From: Akkermansia muciniphila
GTDB lineage: Bacteria > Verrucomicrobiota > Verrucomicrobiia > Verrucomicrobiales > Akkermansiaceae
Reading direction: 5' to 3'
Assembly (NCBI GenBank): GCA_945901795.1
Contig: CAMDLP010000026.1
Coordinates: 1-42,444 of the forward strand
Length of the DNA: 42,444 nt
This document shows positions 1,003-8,370 of this stretch, one piece after another (position 1 is the first letter of the stretch; each line of letters begins with the position of its first letter). The translations under genes were made by a program, and so were the position numbers. The notes under the pieces were generated by a model, which saw only the letters and a list, made by a program, of their open reading frames with translations, was not told where the DNA came from and searched no databases.

Positions 1003-1470
1003 TCACAAAAACCGATCCAGAATCCTGCGGCTGGCAGCATCGAGGTTAAGCGGATTGCGAATCAGGAATTGAATGCCGCGGCTGTCCATGATCATCAGCG
1101 TCGGCGGAGCCAGCCGCCGGATGTCCTCCTCGGCATTAAGCACCAGGGTGGTGTCGCCGCGGTCCGTCTCGACGCGCCAGGTGCTGGGCGTGGCGTAGCC
1201 GGAGACGCTGCAAACCCGCTGGATGACCGGCATGAATTCCCTGCCTTGCAGTTCCTCTTCGATCAGGCGGCGGATTGCCTCCGGCTCCCCGTCCAGACTC
1301 GGAATCCACGCCACCTCTTTGCCGGCGCGGGTCATCAAGGCGATGCCCTCCTCGGGCGAGGTGATCGGAAACGCTCTCGCAGGTTCCACACCCACGTGTT
1401 CGATACCATCGGCACCGGTGAAAACCAGTTGTCCGAAGGCGTTGCGATGAAGTTGGAAATCCCCGGTCAT
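1003..1470 (-). CDS. DUF1854 family protein, cyanophycin-locus associated
   Basis: 155 residues starting MTGDFQLHRN. The start is set by a good Shine-Dalgarno (AAGGAG) placed about 9 bases upstream, and the ATG lies 5 bases after the stop of the ABC exporter gene, so the two form an operon. Family features visible: an N-terminal beta-rich part with the His-Val-Gly-Val-Glu-Pro-Ala-Arg-Ala-Phe-Pro segment (residues 25-35), a central Lys-Glu-Val-Ala-Trp-Ile (51-56), and a conserved C-terminal stretch Ile-Met-Asp-Ser-Arg-Gly (127-132) ending in RRILDRFL. DUF1854 proteins are repeatedly found beside cyanophycin synthetases and are annotated as associated with cyanophycin metabolism; their biochemical role is unknown to me. 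The divergent cphA pair 2.5 kb away fits that association. Cytoplasmic, no signal peptide. Confidence 0.9.
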   Translation of the reverse strand: MTGDFQLHRNAFGQLVFTGADGIEHVGVEPARAFPITSPEEGIALMTRAGKEVAWIPSLDGEPEAIRRLIEEELQGREFMPVIQRVCSVSGYATPSTWRVETDRGDTTLVLNAEEDIRRLAPPTLMIMDSRGIQFLIRNPLNLDAASRRILDRFL

Positions 1471-1475
1471 GTTTG

Positions 1476-3788
1476 CTAGATCTCCTTGAGAATCGGCATG
1501 GTGGAATCGACGCCTTCTTCGATTGCGTCCGTTGCCGGACCGCCATTGAGGAATTCCGTCTGCGCGCGCTCGAGCCGGAAATACGCGCCTTTCCTGGCGA
1601 GCAGTTCCTCGTGATTGCCTTCCTCCACCACTTCGCCGCGGTCGAGCACGACCAGGCGGTCGGCGCGCCGCAAGGTGGAGAGGCGGTGGGCGATGGCCAG
1701 GGTGGTGCGGCCGCGGATCAGGTTGTCGAGCGCGCCCTGGATCTCGAGTTCGGTCTCGGTATCGACCGACGAGGTGGCCTCGTCGAGAATCAGGATCGGC
1801 GGATCGATGAGCAAGGCGCGGGCGATCGAAATCCGCTGGCGCTCGCCGCCTGACAAAGCCTGGCCGCGCTCGCCGACTAACGAATCGTAACCCTGCGGCA
1901 GGCGCAGGATGAACTCGTGGGCGTGGGCCGCGCGGGCCGCGGCGATGATCTCTTCGTGCGTCGCCTCGGGATTTCCATAGGCGATGTTTTCGGCGATCGT
2001 GCCGAAAAACAGGAAGGGCTCCTGCAACACCAGGCCGATGTTGCGCCGGTATTCGGAAACCGGCAGGGAGCGGATGTCCACGCCGTCGATGCGGATCGAG
2101 CCTTCCGCCACGTCGTAGAAGCGGCAGATCAGGTTGACCAGGGTGCTCTTGCCCGATCCGCTGTGGCCGACGAGCCCGATCATTTCGCCGGGCGCGATCG
2201 TTAGGTTCACGTCGTGCAGGATGCCGCGCGTGCCATAGCGGAAACACACGTTGTGGAGTTCGAGCGCGCCGCTCACCTGCTTGAGATGCACCGGATGGGA
2301 CGGCTCCGGCACGCTTGAAACGTGGTCGAGAATGTCAAAGATCCGCTTGGCCCCCGCCGCCGCTTTTTGCGACACCGACACGATCCGGCTCATCGAGCCG
2401 AGTCGCGAGTAGAACCGGTTGATATAGGCGAGGAAGGCCACCAGCACGCCCACCGTGATCTCGTTCTTGGACACCAGCCAGATCCCGAAACCCCAGACGA
2501 CTAACAAGCCCGCCTCGGTGAGAAACGTCACCGTCGGGTTGAACAAGGCCCACACCTTGTTGACGCGGTTGTTGACGGCCAGATTGCGGGCGTTGGCCTC
2601 GCGGAAGCGCTGCGCCTCGCGTTTCTCCTGGGCGAACGCCTTGACCACGCGGATGCCGGGAATCGTGTCCGCCAGCACGCTGGTGACCTCCGACCAGATC
2701 CGGTAGACCTGGTCGAAACCATGATGAAGCTTGTTCCGCACCACGTGAATCAACCACGCGATGAGCGGCAGCGGCGCCAGGGTCACCAGGGCCAGCCACG
2801 GGTTGATCGAAAGCAGAATCGCCGACGTCATCAGGATCATCAGCAGGTCGGTCACGAAATCCAACAGATGAGAGGAGATGAACACGCAGATCCGGTCGCT
2901 GCCCGAGGAGATGCGGGCCATCAGGTCGCCGGTGCGCTTGCCGCCGAAGTATTCCAGCGAGAGCCCCTGCAGGTGCTCGTAGGTGGTGGTGCGGAGGTCG
3001 GAGCCGATGCGCTCGCTGATCAGGGCGAGCAGATAGGTTTTGGCCCAGTCGAGAATCCAGGCGAGGAATGCCGAGGCGACCAGTCCGCCTAGCAGCATCA
3101 TCACCAGGGTGGTGTCGATGGGCACGCCGTTTTGAAACGGGATCAGGACCCGGTCCATCAGCGGCATGGTCAGATAGGGCGGCACCAGGGTGGCGGCGGT
3201 GGCCAGCAGCGTGAGGACAAAACCCGCCAGCAAGGGGCGGGTGTAGGGTTTGGCGAAGCGCCACAGCCGGAGCAGCGTCCACGGCGACGGCGGCGCATGG
3301 ACGGTCTTCGCGCATGCGGGACACTCCTCCTGCCCGGCCGGGATCGGGTTCTCACAGATGGGGCACATGGCATGCGGCGGCGGAACCGCCGGCCGGTTGT
3401 CCACCATGGCCCTCAGATGCTCTTGGAATTGCACGATGAGCCGCCGCACCGCCGCGTCCCGGCCGAGAGTATGACGCCAGCGGGCCAGCAAGCCGTTTTC
3501 GTCCCGCAGGTCCAAGGTGCCGACTCCCGTGTGATCACGGTGTTCCAACTGCAACCCGGGGCGGAACCCCCAGCGCCGCCACGCCGCATCGCCCGCGGCC
3601 TTGGCGAGCAGCCCGTAGTCCGTTAGGACGACGACGCCCAGGTCAAACCGGAGCTCGAGGTTCAGGTCCAACTCAAGGCAGGCGATCACGGATTCCCTTT
3701 CGCCAAGCGCGGCGACAATTTCACCCCGCCACGGATCGGTTAGGACGGTGGCGGCGGATGGCGAACTCGAAAGGTCGGCTGACGTCAT
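1476..3788 (-). CDS. Cyanophycin-associated ABC exporter with N-terminal extension and zinc ribbon
   Basis: 770 residues from the ATG at 3788 (MTSADLSSSP). An upstream in-frame start would overlap the divergent gene region and adds only low-complexity text. Order of parts: an N-terminal cytoplasmic domain (about 1-130); a CPIC-x10-CPAC zinc ribbon (142-159); six-helix ABC exporter membrane domain (about 185-485); and an ATPase domain with Walker A GHSGSGKST (541-549), signature LSGGERQ (645-651), Walker B ILILDE (665-670) and the switch His (701). This is a half-transporter that should act as a homodimer, of the lipid/peptide-exporter type. The extra N-domain and ribbon are typical of exporters encoded next to DUF1854 and cyanophycin synthetase. 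The substrate is unknown. It is co-transcribed with DUF1854 and divergent from the cphA pair. Confidence 0.93.
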   Translation of the reverse strand: MTSADLSSSPSAATVLTDPWRGEIVAALGERESVIACLELDLNLELRFDLGVVVLTDYGLLAKAAGDAAWRRWGFRPGLQLEHRDHTGVGTLDLRDENGLLARWRHTLGRDAAVRRLIVQFQEHLRAMVDNRPAVPPPHAMCPICENPIPAGQEECPACAKTVHAPPSPWTLLRLWRFAKPYTRPLLAGFVLTLLATAATLVPPYLTMPLMDRVLIPFQNGVPIDTTLVMMLLGGLVASAFLAWILDWAKTYLLALISERIGSDLRTTTYEHLQGLSLEYFGGKRTGDLMARISSGSDRICVFISSHLLDFVTDLLMILMTSAILLSINPWLALVTLAPLPLIAWLIHVVRNKLHHGFDQVYRIWSEVTSVLADTIPGIRVVKAFAQEKREAQRFREANARNLAVNNRVNKVWALFNPTVTFLTEAGLLVVWGFGIWLVSKNEITVGVLVAFLAYINRFYSRLGSMSRIVSVSQKAAAGAKRIFDILDHVSSVPEPSHPVHLKQVSGALELHNVCFRYGTRGILHDVNLTIAPGEMIGLVGHSGSGKSTLVNLICRFYDVAEGSIRIDGVDIRSLPVSEYRRNIGLVLQEPFLFFGTIAENIAYGNPEATHEEIIAAARAAHAHEFILRLPQGYDSLVGERGQALSGGERQRISIARALLIDPPILILDEATSSVDTETELEIQGALDNLIRGRTTLAIAHRLSTLRRADRLVVLDRGEVVEEGNHEELLARKGAYFRLERAQTEFLNGGPATDAIEEGVDSTMPILKEI

Positions 3789-3970: not shown

Positions 3971-5818
3971 ATGACACGCAAAGACATCCGGTTTCTCAAT
4001 TTTCTTTCCCTTCGTGGCCCCAACCTCTGGACCTACCGGCCCGTGCTGGAGGCGTGGGTGGATATCGGCGAACTCGAAGAATGCCCGTCCAATACGATCC
4101 CCGGCTTTGTGGAACGGCTGTGCGCATGGCTGCCAACCTTGTCCGAGCACCGCTGCAGTTATGGCGAAGCGGGCGGGTTTGTGCGGCGCTTGCAGGAGGG
4201 AACCTGGCCGGCACACATCCTCGAACACGTCACGCTGGAACTCCAGAACCTCGCAGGCATGCCCGGCGGCTTCGGCAGGGCCCGTGAAACCGGTGTGCGC
4301 GGGGTTTACAAGGTGGTGGTGCAAGCTTGGCATGAGGATGTCACCCGCGCCTGCCTTCATGCGGCACGGGATTTGGTGATGGCAGCCATCGAGGATAAGC
4401 CTTTCGACATGGTCGCTACTCATGAACGCCTGCGAGAAATCGCCGTCAAACATCTTCCAGGGCCTAACACCGCCTGCATCGTCGATGCCGCCACCGCCAA
4501 AGAGCGCGGCATTCCCGCGATCCGCTTGTCCGCCGACAACCTCATTCAACTCGGCTACGGCTCGCGCCAACGGCGGATCTGGGCCGCCCAGAGCGACCGC
4601 ACCAGCGCCATCGCCCAAGGCATCGCCCGGGATCCCGAACTGAGCGCCGGTTTGCTAGTGTCGTGCGGCCTGCCAATCGTGGACCCCGATGAGGACAGGG
4701 CGGAACCGGACGGGCGCGGGCGATACCGATTGCTCGTGCTGGGCGGCACCTTGGTGGCCGCGGCCCGCATGGATGAGGATGGCGGCGCGGCGGACGTTAC
4801 CAATCAAGTCCATCCGTCGACGGCGACCGCGGCCTGTTTGGCCGTGCGGGTGGTCGGTCTCGACATCGCGGGAGTGGACGTTTTGGCGGACGACATTGCC
4901 CGCCCGTTGGCCGCTCAAGGCGGAGCGATTGCCGGAGTGCATGAGGCTCCCGCATTGGTCCCGCACCTGCACCCGGCTTCGGGCGAACCGCGTCCGGTTG
5001 GCCGCGCCATCGTCGACCACTTGTTTCCTAACGGAGATTCCGGGCGCATTCCGGTGGTGGGCATCACGGGTTCCAGCGGAACCACGGAGGTCGCACAGTG
5101 GGTGACGGAGTTTTTACGACTCTCCGGGAAATTCACCGGCCTGGCCTGTGGCGATGGCCTGTTTCTCGACCGCCGCAAGGTGGAGTCGGGGGATTGCGGC
5201 ACGTGGCGCCGCAGCACCCAGGTGTTGATGAACCGCGCGGTGGAAGCCGCCGTGTTAGAAAATGGCGCGGAGGTGATTCTCGGACAAGGCCTGGCTTACG
5301 ACCGCTGCCAAGTCGGGGTGGTCACCGGCATCGAGCCCGCGCGGCATTACGGGACTTATTACATCGAGAAGCCCGAGCAGGTGTTCCAAGTGTTTCGCAG
5401 TCAAGTGGACGTGGTTCTCCCCGGCGGCGTGGCGGTGCTTCATGCCGCGGACCCGATGGTGGTGGAAATGGCCCCTCTGTGTGATGGCGAGGTGATCTTC
5501 TTCTCCATCGACGCGGATCTACCAGTGCTCGCCGCTCACCGCGCGCAAGGCGGACGGGCTGTTTTTGTGCGCGGCGACCAATTGGTCCTGGCCACTGCGG
5601 CCGAGGAATCGCCTCTTCTGCCGCTGGCGGAGATTACCTTTCTCACCGGAGATTCTGCGAACATTCGTCTGAACTGCGTGTTGGCCGCCGTCGCCGCGGC
5701 CTGGGCGCTGGGTATCGCGCTGCATGTGATCCGCACCGGTGCCGAGACATTTTCCGACGACCCGGTACCGTCGTTCGACGTCACCGACCCATTTGTTCCG
5801 ATCACCCATACCGCATGA
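3971..5818 (+). CDS. Degenerate cyanophycin synthetase paralogue (CphA-like, ligase sites lost)
   Basis: 615 residues starting MTRKDIRFLN, chosen because homology to CphA begins there (LRGPNLW at residues 14-20). The N-domain is canonical and holds an HxxEH motif (HILEH, 82-86) followed by the Gly-Phe-Gly-Arg-x-Arg-Glu-Thr signature. The ATP-grasp region is cut down: between about 230 and 255 the VVIKPRDGNQGKGV-type nucleotide loop of the downstream CphA is missing, as are the later substrate segments. The Mur-like central domain is present, but its P-loop reads GITGSSGTTEV (364-374) where the active enzyme has SGTNGKTTT, so the lysine is gone. The C-terminal Mur ligase domain is absent; the protein ends near 615 where CphA continues to 851. 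ATGA overlap with cphA (5815-5818) predicts coupled translation. Probably a partner subunit rather than a polymerase. Confidence 0.9.
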   Translation: MTRKDIRFLNFLSLRGPNLWTYRPVLEAWVDIGELEECPSNTIPGFVERLCAWLPTLSEHRCSYGEAGGFVRRLQEGTWPAHILEHVTLELQNLAGMPGGFGRARETGVRGVYKVVVQAWHEDVTRACLHAARDLVMAAIEDKPFDMVATHERLREIAVKHLPGPNTACIVDAATAKERGIPAIRLSADNLIQLGYGSRQRRIWAAQSDRTSAIAQGIARDPELSAGLLVSCGLPIVDPDEDRAEPDGRGRYRLLVLGGTLVAAARMDEDGGAADVTNQVHPSTATAACLAVRVVGLDIAGVDVLADDIARPLAAQGGAIAGVHEAPALVPHLHPASGEPRPVGRAIVDHLFPNGDSGRIPVVGITGSSGTTEVAQWVTEFLRLSGKFTGLACGDGLFLDRRKVESGDCGTWRRSTQVLMNRAVEAAVLENGAEVILGQGLAYDRCQVGVVTGIEPARHYGTYYIEKPEQVFQVFRSQVDVVLPGGVAVLHAADPMVVEMAPLCDGEVIFFSIDADLPVLAAHRAQGGRAVFVRGDQLVLATAAEESPLLPLAEITFLTGDSANIRLNCVLAAVAAAWALGIALHVIRTGAETFSDDPVPSFDVTDPFVPITHTA

Positions 5819-8370
5819 ATATCCTTAACATCCGGGCGCTGCGTGGGCCCAATCTTTGGGGACTGCACACCGCGATCCAAGCGCTCGTCAGTTGCAGTGG
5901 ACAGGAACTCTGCCTGGATCAGCTGCCCGGCTTCGAGGACCGCCTGCGCGAACGATTTCCACAAATCTCCTCGTTCCAACCCGGTGCCCCTTTGGTTTCC
6001 GCGCTGGAACTCGCCGCCCTCGGTCTGCAAGCCCAGGTCGGTTGTCCGGTCGCGTTCAGCCGCTCGGTCGCCGTGCCCGAACCCGGAGTCTATCAGGTGA
6101 TCGTTGAATACACCGAGGAAGCCGTCGGCCGCCTGGCCATCGAGCTGGCTCTGGAATTGTGCGCGGCCGCGCTCAACGACCTGCCGTTCGACCTGCCGTC
6201 CGCCCTCACCCGGTTGCGCGAGCTCGACGAGGAGGTCCGGCTCGGCCCCAGCACCGGCGCCATCGTCGCCGCCGCCGTCGCCCGTGGCATTCCATACCGC
6301 AGGCTCACCGAGGGAAGTCTGGTGCAGTTCGGCTGGGGCAGCAAACAGCGGCGCATCCAGGCCGCGGAAATGGACAGCACCAGCGCCATCGCCGAATCGA
6401 TCGCCCAGGACAAAGAGCTAACCAAACATTTGCTGGAAGCCGCCGGCGTGCCGGTGCCCAAGGGCCGCCCGGTCACCGATGCCGAGGATGCCTGGGCCGC
6501 CGCCCGCGAACTCGGAGGTCCGGTGGTCATCAAACCCCGCGATGGCAACCAAGGCAAGGGCGTGGCCGCCAACGTCGAGACCCGCGAAGATGTGTTAGCC
6601 GGTTACGCCGCCGCGCATGAAGTCAGTTCCAATGTCATGGTGGAACAATACCTGCCCGGCCAGGATTATCGCCTGCTGGTCATCGGAAACCGCCTCGTCG
6701 CCGCCGCGCGCCGCGAACCGCCGCATGTCATCGGCGATGGCGAACACACCATCTTGGAACTCGTGGAAGAGGTCAACAGCGACCCGCGGCGCAGCGATGG
6801 TCACGCCACCTCCCTAACGAAAATTCACCTGGATGAAATCGCCCTCGCCACGCTCGCCCATCAGGATTTCGACGCCGGCTCGGTGCCGCGCAGGGGCGCG
6901 CGGGTGATCCTGCGCAACAACGCCAACCTCAGCACCGGCGGCACCGCTACCGATGTCACGGATGACGTCCATCCGGAGATCGCGGCACGCGCCGTCTCGG
7001 CGGCGCAAATGGTCGGACTCGATCTTTGCGGCGTCGATGTGGTGTGCGAAAGTGTCCTCACTCCCTTGGAAAACCAGTCCGGCGGAGTGATCGAGGTCAA
7101 TGCAGCACCCGGTCTTCGCATGCATCTCCAGCCCTCGTTTGGCAAAGGCCGCCCGGTGGGCGAGGCGGTGATTTCCACCATGTTCGACGAGCGCGAGAAT
7201 GGCCGCATCCCGGTCGTCGCCGTGTCCGGCACCAACGGCAAGACCACCACCGTGCGCCTGATCGCCCACCTGCTAGGCCTTACCGGCAGGCGCGTGGGCA
7301 TGACCAATTCCGACGGGGTTTACATCAACAACCAGCGCATCGACACCGGCGACTGCAGCGGCCCGCGCAGCGCCCGCAACGTGCTGTTCCATCCGGATGT
7401 GGATGCTGCCGTGTTAGAAATCGCGCGCGGCGGCGTCCTCCGCGAAGGCCTCGGCTTCGACCGTTGCGACGTCGCCGTGATCACCAACATCGGCATGGGC
7501 GATCACCTCGGCCTCAATTACATCAGCACCGTCGAGGACCTCGCGGTGGTCAAGCGTGTCATCGTCCACAGCGTCGCGCCCCATGGCGTGGCTGTGCTCA
7601 ACGCTGCCGACCCGATCGTCGCGGGCATGGCCGATGCCTGCCCGGGTTCCATCACCTTCTTCGCCCATGACCGCCACGAACGCGTGCTCGCCAATCACCT
7701 CGCCCAAGGCAAGCGCGGCGTGTTCGTCGATGGCGACGCGATCGTCGGGGCGAAAGGCAAACTCCGCTACCGCGTGTCGCTGAGCAACATCCCCCTCACC
7801 CGCAACGGCACCATCAAGTTTCAAGTCGAGAACTCGATGGCCGCCATCGCCGCCGCCTGGGGGCTTGGCATCTCATGGGAGAAGATCCGCCGCGGCTTGG
7901 CCACTTTTGTCAACGATGCAGCCACCGCGCCCGGTCGCTTCAATGTCTTTACCCATCGTGGCGCCACCCTCATCGCCGATTACGGCCACAATCCGGACGC
8001 CATCCTGGCGCTGGTCCAAGCCGTCGAGAGCATGCCCTCCAACCGCCGCATCGTTGTCATCAGCGGTGCCGGCGACCGCCGCGATTGCGACATCCGCTTG
8101 CAGACGGAAATCCTCGGCGAGGCCTTCGACGAGGTGATCCTCTATCAGGATGACTGCCAGCGCGGCCGCGCCGACGGCGAGGTGATGGCCTTGTTGCGCG
8201 ACGGCCTGGCCAACGCGCGCCGCACCACCCGCACCGAGGAGATCCGCGGCGAGATGCTGGCGATCGACACCGCCCTCTCCCGCCTCCAGGCCGGCGACCT
8301 GTGTCTGATCCTCATCGACCGCATCGACGAGGCCCTCGCCCACATCGCCGTGCGCAACGCGGAAGCTTGA
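5815..8370 (+). CDS. cphA: Cyanophycin synthetase CphA
   Basis: 851 residues, close to the usual length of bacterial CphA. It polymerises aspartate and arginine into the storage polymer cyanophycin (multi-L-arginyl-poly-L-aspartate) in the cytoplasm using two ATP-dependent ligase sites. Visible parts: N-domain (1-160); ATP-grasp domain with VVIKPRDGNQGKGV (237-250) and RNNANLSTGGTATD (367-380); EVNAAPG (427-433); Mur-ligase domain with P-loop SGTNGKTTT (471-479); and the C-terminal Mur domain with PGRFN (706-710), DYGHNPD (722-728) and GAGDRRD (751-757). Oddity: the N-domain lacks the HxxEH motif seen in typical CphA1 and in the paralogue upstream; the equivalent segment reads SALELAALGLQAQ. 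It starts inside the stop of that paralogue (ATGA). No cyanophycinase gene lies in the window. Confidence 0.96.
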   Translation: MNILNIRALRGPNLWGLHTAIQALVSCSGQELCLDQLPGFEDRLRERFPQISSFQPGAPLVSALELAALGLQAQVGCPVAFSRSVAVPEPGVYQVIVEYTEEAVGRLAIELALELCAAALNDLPFDLPSALTRLRELDEEVRLGPSTGAIVAAAVARGIPYRRLTEGSLVQFGWGSKQRRIQAAEMDSTSAIAESIAQDKELTKHLLEAAGVPVPKGRPVTDAEDAWAAARELGGPVVIKPRDGNQGKGVAANVETREDVLAGYAAAHEVSSNVMVEQYLPGQDYRLLVIGNRLVAAARREPPHVIGDGEHTILELVEEVNSDPRRSDGHATSLTKIHLDEIALATLAHQDFDAGSVPRRGARVILRNNANLSTGGTATDVTDDVHPEIAARAVSAAQMVGLDLCGVDVVCESVLTPLENQSGGVIEVNAAPGLRMHLQPSFGKGRPVGEAVISTMFDERENGRIPVVAVSGTNGKTTTVRLIAHLLGLTGRRVGMTNSDGVYINNQRIDTGDCSGPRSARNVLFHPDVDAAVLEIARGGVLREGLGFDRCDVAVITNIGMGDHLGLNYISTVEDLAVVKRVIVHSVAPHGVAVLNAADPIVAGMADACPGSITFFAHDRHERVLANHLAQGKRGVFVDGDAIVGAKGKLRYRVSLSNIPLTRNGTIKFQVENSMAAIAAAWGLGISWEKIRRGLATFVNDAATAPGRFNVFTHRGATLIADYGHNPDAILALVQAVESMPSNRRIVVISGAGDRRDCDIRLQTEILGEAFDEVILYQDDCQRGRADGEVMALLRDGLANARRTTRTEEIRGEMLAIDTALSRLQAGDLCLILIDRIDEALAHIAVRNAEA

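Follow-up and report, generated by a model that had tools for sequence, protein, structure and literature searches.

A cyanophycin-synthetase-type gene pair with its active sites divided between two paralogues, and the ABC transporter and DUF1854 genes linked to it

This report concerns two adjacent, paralogous genes of the cyanophycin synthetase (CphA) type in a 42,444-nucleotide stretch of Akkermansia muciniphila DNA (GenBank assembly GCA_945901795.1, contig CAMDLP010000026.1, positions 1 to 42,444 of the forward strand), which is referred to as the window. The upstream gene, UP (3971..5818, 615 aa), is a CphA1 paralogue that lacks the lids but has its N-domain zinc site intact, and the downstream gene, DN (5815..8370, 851 aa), is a full-length CphA with an inactive-looking N domain and is the presumed polymerase; both lie on the + strand, as do all features described below unless stated. 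The split pair is real and widespread, and represents a known enzyme in a new form. Probably the two genes encode paralogous subunits that together make up one machine of the cyanophycin synthetase type, with priming and cutting assigned to UP and polymerisation to DN. In this scheme the ATP-grasp and Mur-ligase reactions of DN would extend and decorate an aspartate-type backbone, and UP would be a gutted synthetase whose folded G and M cores are kept as a scaffold. UP would join DN in a mixed oligomer, as its retention of the two cores suggests, and its N-domain zinc endopeptidase would cut the growing chain to short pieces that restart synthesis (or would set the length of the product).

A two-subunit synthetase had already been proposed in the first-pass annotation. 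The complementary anatomy of the two proteins, together with a reciprocal conservation of the N module in UP and the M module in DN, bears out the anatomical part of that proposal; cutting, binding and priming by UP are inferred. The proposal covered the gene pair only, omitting the linked genes for an ABC transporter and a DUF1854 protein, which make up half of the conserved gene set. Precedents for such a division exist (PMC9262961; this paper and PMC9427784, PMC10687191, PMC5178258, PMC8560796 and PMC11362209 are cited throughout from their accessible portions). An isolated N domain supplied in trans makes the N-dead TmCphA1 of Tatumella morbirosei primer-independent, and engineered N-G+M+/N+G-M- heterodimers of SuCphA1, from Synechocystis sp. 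UTEX2470, are active, being somewhat slower without primer. The engineered heterodimer spreads its active sites across two protomers in the same way, although it is built of laboratory point mutants of one protein, whereas UP and DN are two diverged genes with deletions.

Active sites of the two proteins

The coordinates and reading frames first assigned to UP and DN, and the ATGA at 5815..5818 in which the UP stop and the DN start overlap, were correct on re-checking. UP matches PF18921 at 124.8 bits (cut-off 27). Its residues 82–86 do read HILEH (His82, Glu85 and His86; 4214..4228), and Cys62 (4154..4156) sits 19 residues ahead of His82. When aligned with HMMER, these four residues fall on C59 (a zinc ligand), H79, E82 and H83 of SuCphA1 (structure 7lg5; a second structure, 7txv, has Gln at E82). 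The Cx19HxxEH site is complete in the window UP, and the equivalents of H57, F67, R70 and E87 are also there. The upstream Cys is the ground on which CphA1 N domains are set apart from M16 in PMC9262961, where the site is described as a metal-dependent endo-cyanophycinase that makes primers, with zinc assigned tentatively; the primer-making hydrolase site named at first pass agrees with that description.

The ligase machinery had been reported as lacking from UP, and the window protein is indeed missing most of the Glid, G-omega and Mlid modules, with both cores remaining. In CphA1 the modules comprise Gcore, Glid (235–305), G-omega (325–399) and Mcore (488–723), followed by Mlid (PMC9427784). 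The window UP is without the equivalents of SuCphA1 248–306, 325–375 and 380–400 and almost everything past 727, and its ATP-grasp domain is incomplete. Applying those module limits, the G-domain core, without Glid and G-omega, occupies approximately 4460..5035, and is followed at approximately 5036..5764 by a remnant of the M-domain core, in which the P-loop is altered to GSSGTTE and Mlid is gone. UP scores below both CphA cut-offs (TIGR02068, 508.3 bits against 850; NF010623, 728.3 bits against 877). An AlphaFold2 model of UP (predicted local distance difference test score, pLDDT, 74.0; predicted template modelling score, pTM, 0.58) places a predicted metal helix at residues 80–95. Its best Foldseek matches are SuCphA1 and TeCphA1, the latter from Trichodesmium (TMq 0.77–0.79), and VIA-align superposes 573 of the 615 residues on TeCphA1 (7wae_C; Z 33.4, root mean square deviation 3.8) and 574 on SuCphA1 (7txv_A; Z 33.1, root mean square deviation 4.0). 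The window UP was also considered as a CphA2, an assignment ruled out by the presence of the N-site motif and the missing ATP-grasp lids.

DN exceeds both of these CphA cut-offs (TIGR02068, 969.7 bits, cut-off 850; NF010623, 1221.4 bits, cut-off 877). As had been noticed, it has no HxxEH motif: Ser, Glu and Leu occupy those columns, the C59 column is non-Cys, and SuCphA1 61–74 is deleted (deletion point at approximately 5977..6000). All of the M-domain features sought were found, namely the P-loop with Lys499, Asp585-His586, and Mlid with Arg731 and His748, as were the aspartate-site residues Arg323, Asn394, Ser396 and Arg458 of the G domain. Both P-loops of DN had been called intact, which is true of the Mur-ligase GTNGKTT (GTNGKTTT, 7228..7251) but not of the ATP-grasp P-loop, where Gln246 (6550..6552) stands at the position of the catalytic His267. 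The structure model of DN was weak (pLDDT 63.8) and was left unused.

Distribution, conservation and descent of the pair

Loci were assembled from a contig protein scan, a class sample, an order sample and fetched regions, giving 161 in all (the window, L009–L088 and L174–L253); L001–L008 and L089–L173 (mostly the same genes repeated in short stretches), G069 (one gene with the N site, N+) and G076 (genes split across contigs) were left out. Among them are 132 same-strand tandem pairs (the contig scan gave 78, the order sample 48 and the class sample five, and the window is one more), and in every one the Cx19HxxEH gene is upstream and the N-dead gene downstream. The contig scan was seeded with UP, and the best 80 of its 286 loci were kept, which biases it towards UP. 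The class sample is independent of UP: a gene above the TIGR02068 cut-off is present in 17 of 369 genomes from the class to which a Pandoraea genome belongs, 11 with a single N+ CphA and six with the DN type (two candidates were scored per genome, and a third CphA gene could be missed). UP adjoins DN in 6/6 of the DN-type genomes, against 0/11 of the N+ singles. The order sample took in 300 genomes from the order of that Pandoraea; an N-domain match was found in 113 of them, with at least two in 103 and only one in ten. A UP–DN pair is present in 48/48 of the multi-hit genomes from which regions were fetched, these 48 being hand-picked and non-random. Completeness is unstated for nearly all genomes in the class, order, cyanophycinase, DUF1854 and PF01112 surveys, and absences may be gaps. 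Hosts of the pair are kin of Akkermansiaceae and many Burkholderiales-type bacteria. A further 26 loci have a single N-domain gene, including two UPs separated from DN by contig ends (L011, L037), a DN at a contig start (L246) and two incomplete loci (L191, L193); the set of single N+ full-length CphAs comprises 20 loci minus L037, leaving 19.

A non-redundant set of 68 pairs, with DN–DN identity below 90% and one DN (L250) cut by a contig end, was used to follow individual residues. H57, C59, F67, R70, H79, E82, H83 and E87 are retained in 68/68 UPs. In the DNs, F67 and R70 are deleted in 68/68, Cys is found at C59 in one and His at H83 in two. The H79 column is still His in 51/68 and the E82 column Glu in 46/68, the letters beside the deletion being dependent on the alignment; the N site of DN thus appears to have been lost mainly via the loop and H83. 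The aspartate-site positions of TeCphA1 show the reverse. R323, S396 and R458 are retained in 68, 67 and 67 of the 68 DNs (one DN being contig-cut), and all three in 19/19 single N+ CphAs, against 0/68 UPs, where the S396 loop is deleted in 68/68 and residue 458 is Leu in 60/68. Since an Arg lies one residue before the R323 position in 48/68 UPs, the loss of R323 is less sure, and those of S396 and R458 are firmer. All 68 UPs have both cores (G and M), Mlid is lost in 55, and Lys499 and Mlid are retained in the other 13.

Whole modules show the same reciprocity. In the N module, UPs resemble one another more closely than DNs do in 76% of 2,278 comparisons, which are not independent, and in 10/10 comparisons within the kin of Akkermansiaceae. 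For Mcore and Mlid, greater similarity among UPs occurs in a fraction of 0.00 (rounded) of 2,211 and 0.00 of 231 comparisons, respectively. Among seven genomes of Akkermansiaceae kin, the median ratios of nonsynonymous to synonymous substitution rates (dN/dS) in UP are 0.086 for N, 0.157 for Gcore and 0.136 for Mcore, taken over the 15–20 of 21 comparisons with an estimable dS. Chance association or a pseudogene is excluded by these low ratios together with the 132/132 tandem pairs. We judge it unlikely that UP plays the structural or regulatory part of a pseudo-synthetase, in which the zinc site stabilises the fold and nothing is cut. Such a role would account for the G and M cores kept by every UP though the catalytic modules are lost, and for purifying selection still acting on the gutted M core, but it leaves unexplained why the general base Glu, H57, R70 and E87 are as invariant as the metal ligands (68/68), and why the N module is the better conserved in UP.

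The spacing of the two genes is less constant than their order. The 4-base overlap occurs in 6/68 non-redundant pairs, and the median spacing is 42 bp (with DN starts chosen automatically). The ATGA overlap had been taken as a sign of equal expression, an argument that is weak because the overlap is not conserved. In Accumulibacter both cphA copies are evenly transcribed (PMC10687191), and these copies probably correspond to UP and DN, judging by their shared layout.

A tree was built from 32 of the 68 pairs using 402 columns of the cores, the N domain and lids being excluded; it was made by a quick method and has several long branches. The 32 UPs form one clade (support 100 in the Shimodaira–Hasegawa-like approximate likelihood ratio test, SH-aLRT), and the 32 DNs form its sister clade (99). 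Members of the Akkermansiaceae make up clades within both, nearest to proteobacterial sequences. This placement, and the rarity of the N domain in the phylum (PF18921 in 3/387 genomes, the window's own counted, and in 4/145 in the family), suggest that the Akkermansiaceae kin may have gained the pair horizontally. Contamination of the assembly was examined and rejected: the UPs and DNs of five genomes (the window, L010, L012, L013 and L014) form clades with support of 100, so other genomes share the pair with this bin. Among plasmids, DN and UP matched 22 and 19 records, respectively, all below 60% identity, and no shared insertion site emerged, the four window open reading frames beside the module being unmatched in the L009–L015 stretches.

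Other arrangements of CphA-like genes were also seen. Three loci (L242, L244 and L245) hold divergent CphA pairs in which both genes are N-dead and both have Gln at 267; they were not counted as pairs, and their genomes (G936, G1148 and G1177) also carry UP and DN. In seven of the 11 class-sample N+ singles (L180, L181, L182, L185, L187, L188 and L189), the CphA gene is followed by a separate Mur-ligase-like gene of 561–596 aa that resembles the CphA M domain. Another member of the Verrucomicrobiota (G189; L191, L192 and L193) carries three CphAs on separate contigs: one is N+ and cut by a contig end, and the other two are N-dead, with Thr at C59 and Asn at H83. At L190 (G744) there is a divergent N-dead CphA-like gene, below the cut-off, for which no UP was found; it has Lys at 267 and the Mur P-loop GSVGKTT.

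Linked genes and competing explanations

Two genes on the - strand accompany the pair in the window, one for an MsbA-like ABC transporter (1476..3788, start codon inferred; NCBIfam NF052233, 1327 bits, cut-off 880) and one for a DUF1854 protein (1003..1470, start codon inferred; NF052234, 215 bits). NCBI names these families 'cyanophycin metabolism-associated ABC transporter' and 'cyanophycin metabolism-associated DUF1854 family protein'. In 81/81 loci the ABC gene is found on the opposite strand, upstream of UP, and DUF1854 is on the ABC strand in 80/81 (in L054 the contig ends there), beyond the ABC gene in 79. Across the order sample, DUF1854 was found in 102/103 multi-hit genomes and in 0/197 others (0/10 single-hit and 0/187 no-hit); the sole exception, G1001, is a fragmented assembly, as its UP is on contig 285. 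Among 29 genomes tested, DUF1854 is present in 23/23 with the pair and in 0/6 with a single CphA. No paper on DUF1854 was found in the literature searched, most subscription journals being outside its coverage. A CxxC...CxxC motif was seen near the N terminus of the ABC protein in 78/81 loci.

Several observations weigh against the division of labour proposed above. Gln replaces the catalytic His267 in 66/68 non-redundant DNs, and the substitution H267A kills the G-domain activity of SuCphA1 and reduces the activity of TeCphA1 (PMC9262961, PMC9427784). His267, which belongs to Glid, is present in 60/68 UPs, including most of the proteobacterial ones, where it would be superfluous for a pure scaffold, and Glid is conserved in UP at least as well as in DN (63% of 1,953 comparisons). 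The M domain of the 13 UPs with Lys499 and Mlid may be active, to judge from the residues kept, and the full-length UP of G504 exceeds the TIGR02068 cut-off at 910 bits. The pair is near-obligately linked to an ABC exporter and DUF1854, and the cyanophycinase family TIGR02069 is above its cut-off in 0/23 pair genomes (G504 and G511 have weak sub-threshold matches), compared with 6/6 of the single-CphA genomes tested (of the 11 class-sample singles). Ralstonia eutropha (Cupriavidus necator) H16 is reported to make no cyanophycin, even with its homologues overexpressed (PMC8560796, PMC11362209); the pair occurs in the C. necator strains of L061, L079 and L088, and H16 is not among the genomes searched. 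Lastly, Tetrasphaera metagenome-assembled genomes are reported with a cphB as well as two copies of cphA, which may or may not be a UP and a DN, and with uneven expression (PMC10687191). The product of the pair may accordingly be something other than ordinary stored cyanophycin. For an Achromobacter genome, the potential for cyanophycin has been named and no polymer reported (PMC12509546).

Position 267 varies in other ways too. Six UPs are without any residue there, and their DNs still have Gln. L176 and L178 are the sole DNs with His267, and their partners are the sole UPs with a residue other than His (Leu and Arg).

The presence of His267 in most UPs raises the question of whether the UP of proteobacteria works as a ligase of the CphA2 kind, adding beta-Asp-Arg dipeptides as well as priming, with the Akkermansiaceae UP as a reduced form of it. 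Leu458 in 60/68 UPs and the fixed loop deletion would be in keeping with this, as would the absence of the M-domain P-loop and Mlid from CphA2 (PMC9427784). We nonetheless think it improbable, since the window UP has neither Glid nor G-omega, its model is closer to CphA1 (TMq 0.72–0.79) than to CphA2 (0.52–0.55), and the N-site motif that it carries is absent from CphA2 (PMC9262961).

The linked genes and the cyanophycinase result may bear on the fate of the product. It is possible, though we hold it to be somewhat unlikely, that the locus is an export module, in which a cyanophycin-like peptide made by DN is trimmed by UP to short, defined pieces and exported by the ABC transporter, with DUF1854 acting in the same pathway; cutting would then be processing rather than, or besides, priming. 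The linkage described above would follow naturally, as would the cyanophycin-free state reported for R. eutropha (PMC8560796, PMC11362209) and the release of mainly four-unit pieces by the N domain that has been studied (PMC9262961). The lack of TIGR02069 matches above the cut-off in the pair genomes is also in line with export, but that negative included no separate search for CphI, CphE or IadA. The peptide is a putative cargo of the transporter, and no product is known outside cells. A few MsbA-type proteins act as importers, which likewise counts against export.

The same lack of a cyanophycinase could be met if UP were a degradative enzyme, with its N domain slowly mobilising the polymer, and the N domain of SuCphA1 is indeed an endo-cyanophycinase (PMC9262961). 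This we consider very improbable: the known N-domain reaction is slow, taking hours to days (PMC9262961), and the adjacency of UP and DN on one strand in 132/132 pairs is a better fit to synthesis than to breakdown. PF01112, an asparaginase-type family, occurs in 9/23 pair genomes and 2/6 singles; a search of the window's own genome gave no match, which is in keeping with export and speaks against degradation. Returning to the split synthetase with UP as its cutting and priming subunit, we tentatively extend it to a widespread four-gene system that might make, cut and export a cyanophycin-like peptide. It would consist of a synthetase split after duplication, a dedicated MsbA-type exporter and DUF1854, and its product would not be the intracellular storage polymer of single-gene CphA1.

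Relation to known enzymes and significance

The closest studied enzymes, SuCphA1 and TeCphA1, have the same N-G-M architecture; UP shares their Cx19HxxEH, and DN their M-domain P-loop and aspartate-site residues. They carry three sites on one polypeptide, whereas here the N site is in UP and the G and M sites are in DN, and further differences are the Gln that stands in place of His267 in DN and the absence of lids from UP. The primer-dependent TmCphA1 has active G and M domains and an N domain without all four motif residues, like DN (PMC9262961); unlike DN, it retains His267, and it has been studied as a single enzyme. CphA2 resembles most UPs in having lost the M-domain P-loop and Mlid, but it ligates dipeptides and has no N-site motif, whereas the window UP has the motif and no G lids.

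Neighbouring cphA copies are already in print (PMC10687191, which cites Fuser and Steinbuchel 2007; 'CphA1, CphA2' in PMC5178258). The 'Group 1' cluster of PMC10687191, a tandem of cphA genes with an ABC transporter and no cphB, is like the locus described here. In the accessible portions of these two papers the tandem genes are handled as two copies, and no division of active sites is proposed. No statement of such a split between cphA copies was found in the literature searched, which, with most subscription journals outside its coverage, is weak evidence of absence.

With synthesis and cutting combined in one enzyme, expression cannot set the balance between them, as argued in PMC9262961, where it is also held that CphA1s lacking the N site are likely primed by leftover chains or by other molecules. 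For a part of these enzymes the natural split would offer an alternative answer to the question of primers, and it would also provide a ready two-part system for the tuning of yield. The pair makes it possible to test why no cyanophycin is seen in R. eutropha, which has two homologues of the synthetase. Finally, the tight link to the ABC transporter and DUF1854 genes, together with the finding of no cyanophycinase in those pair genomes that were tested, raises the prospect that in Burkholderiales-type bacteria many genes annotated as 'cyanophycin synthetase' may serve something other than nitrogen storage.

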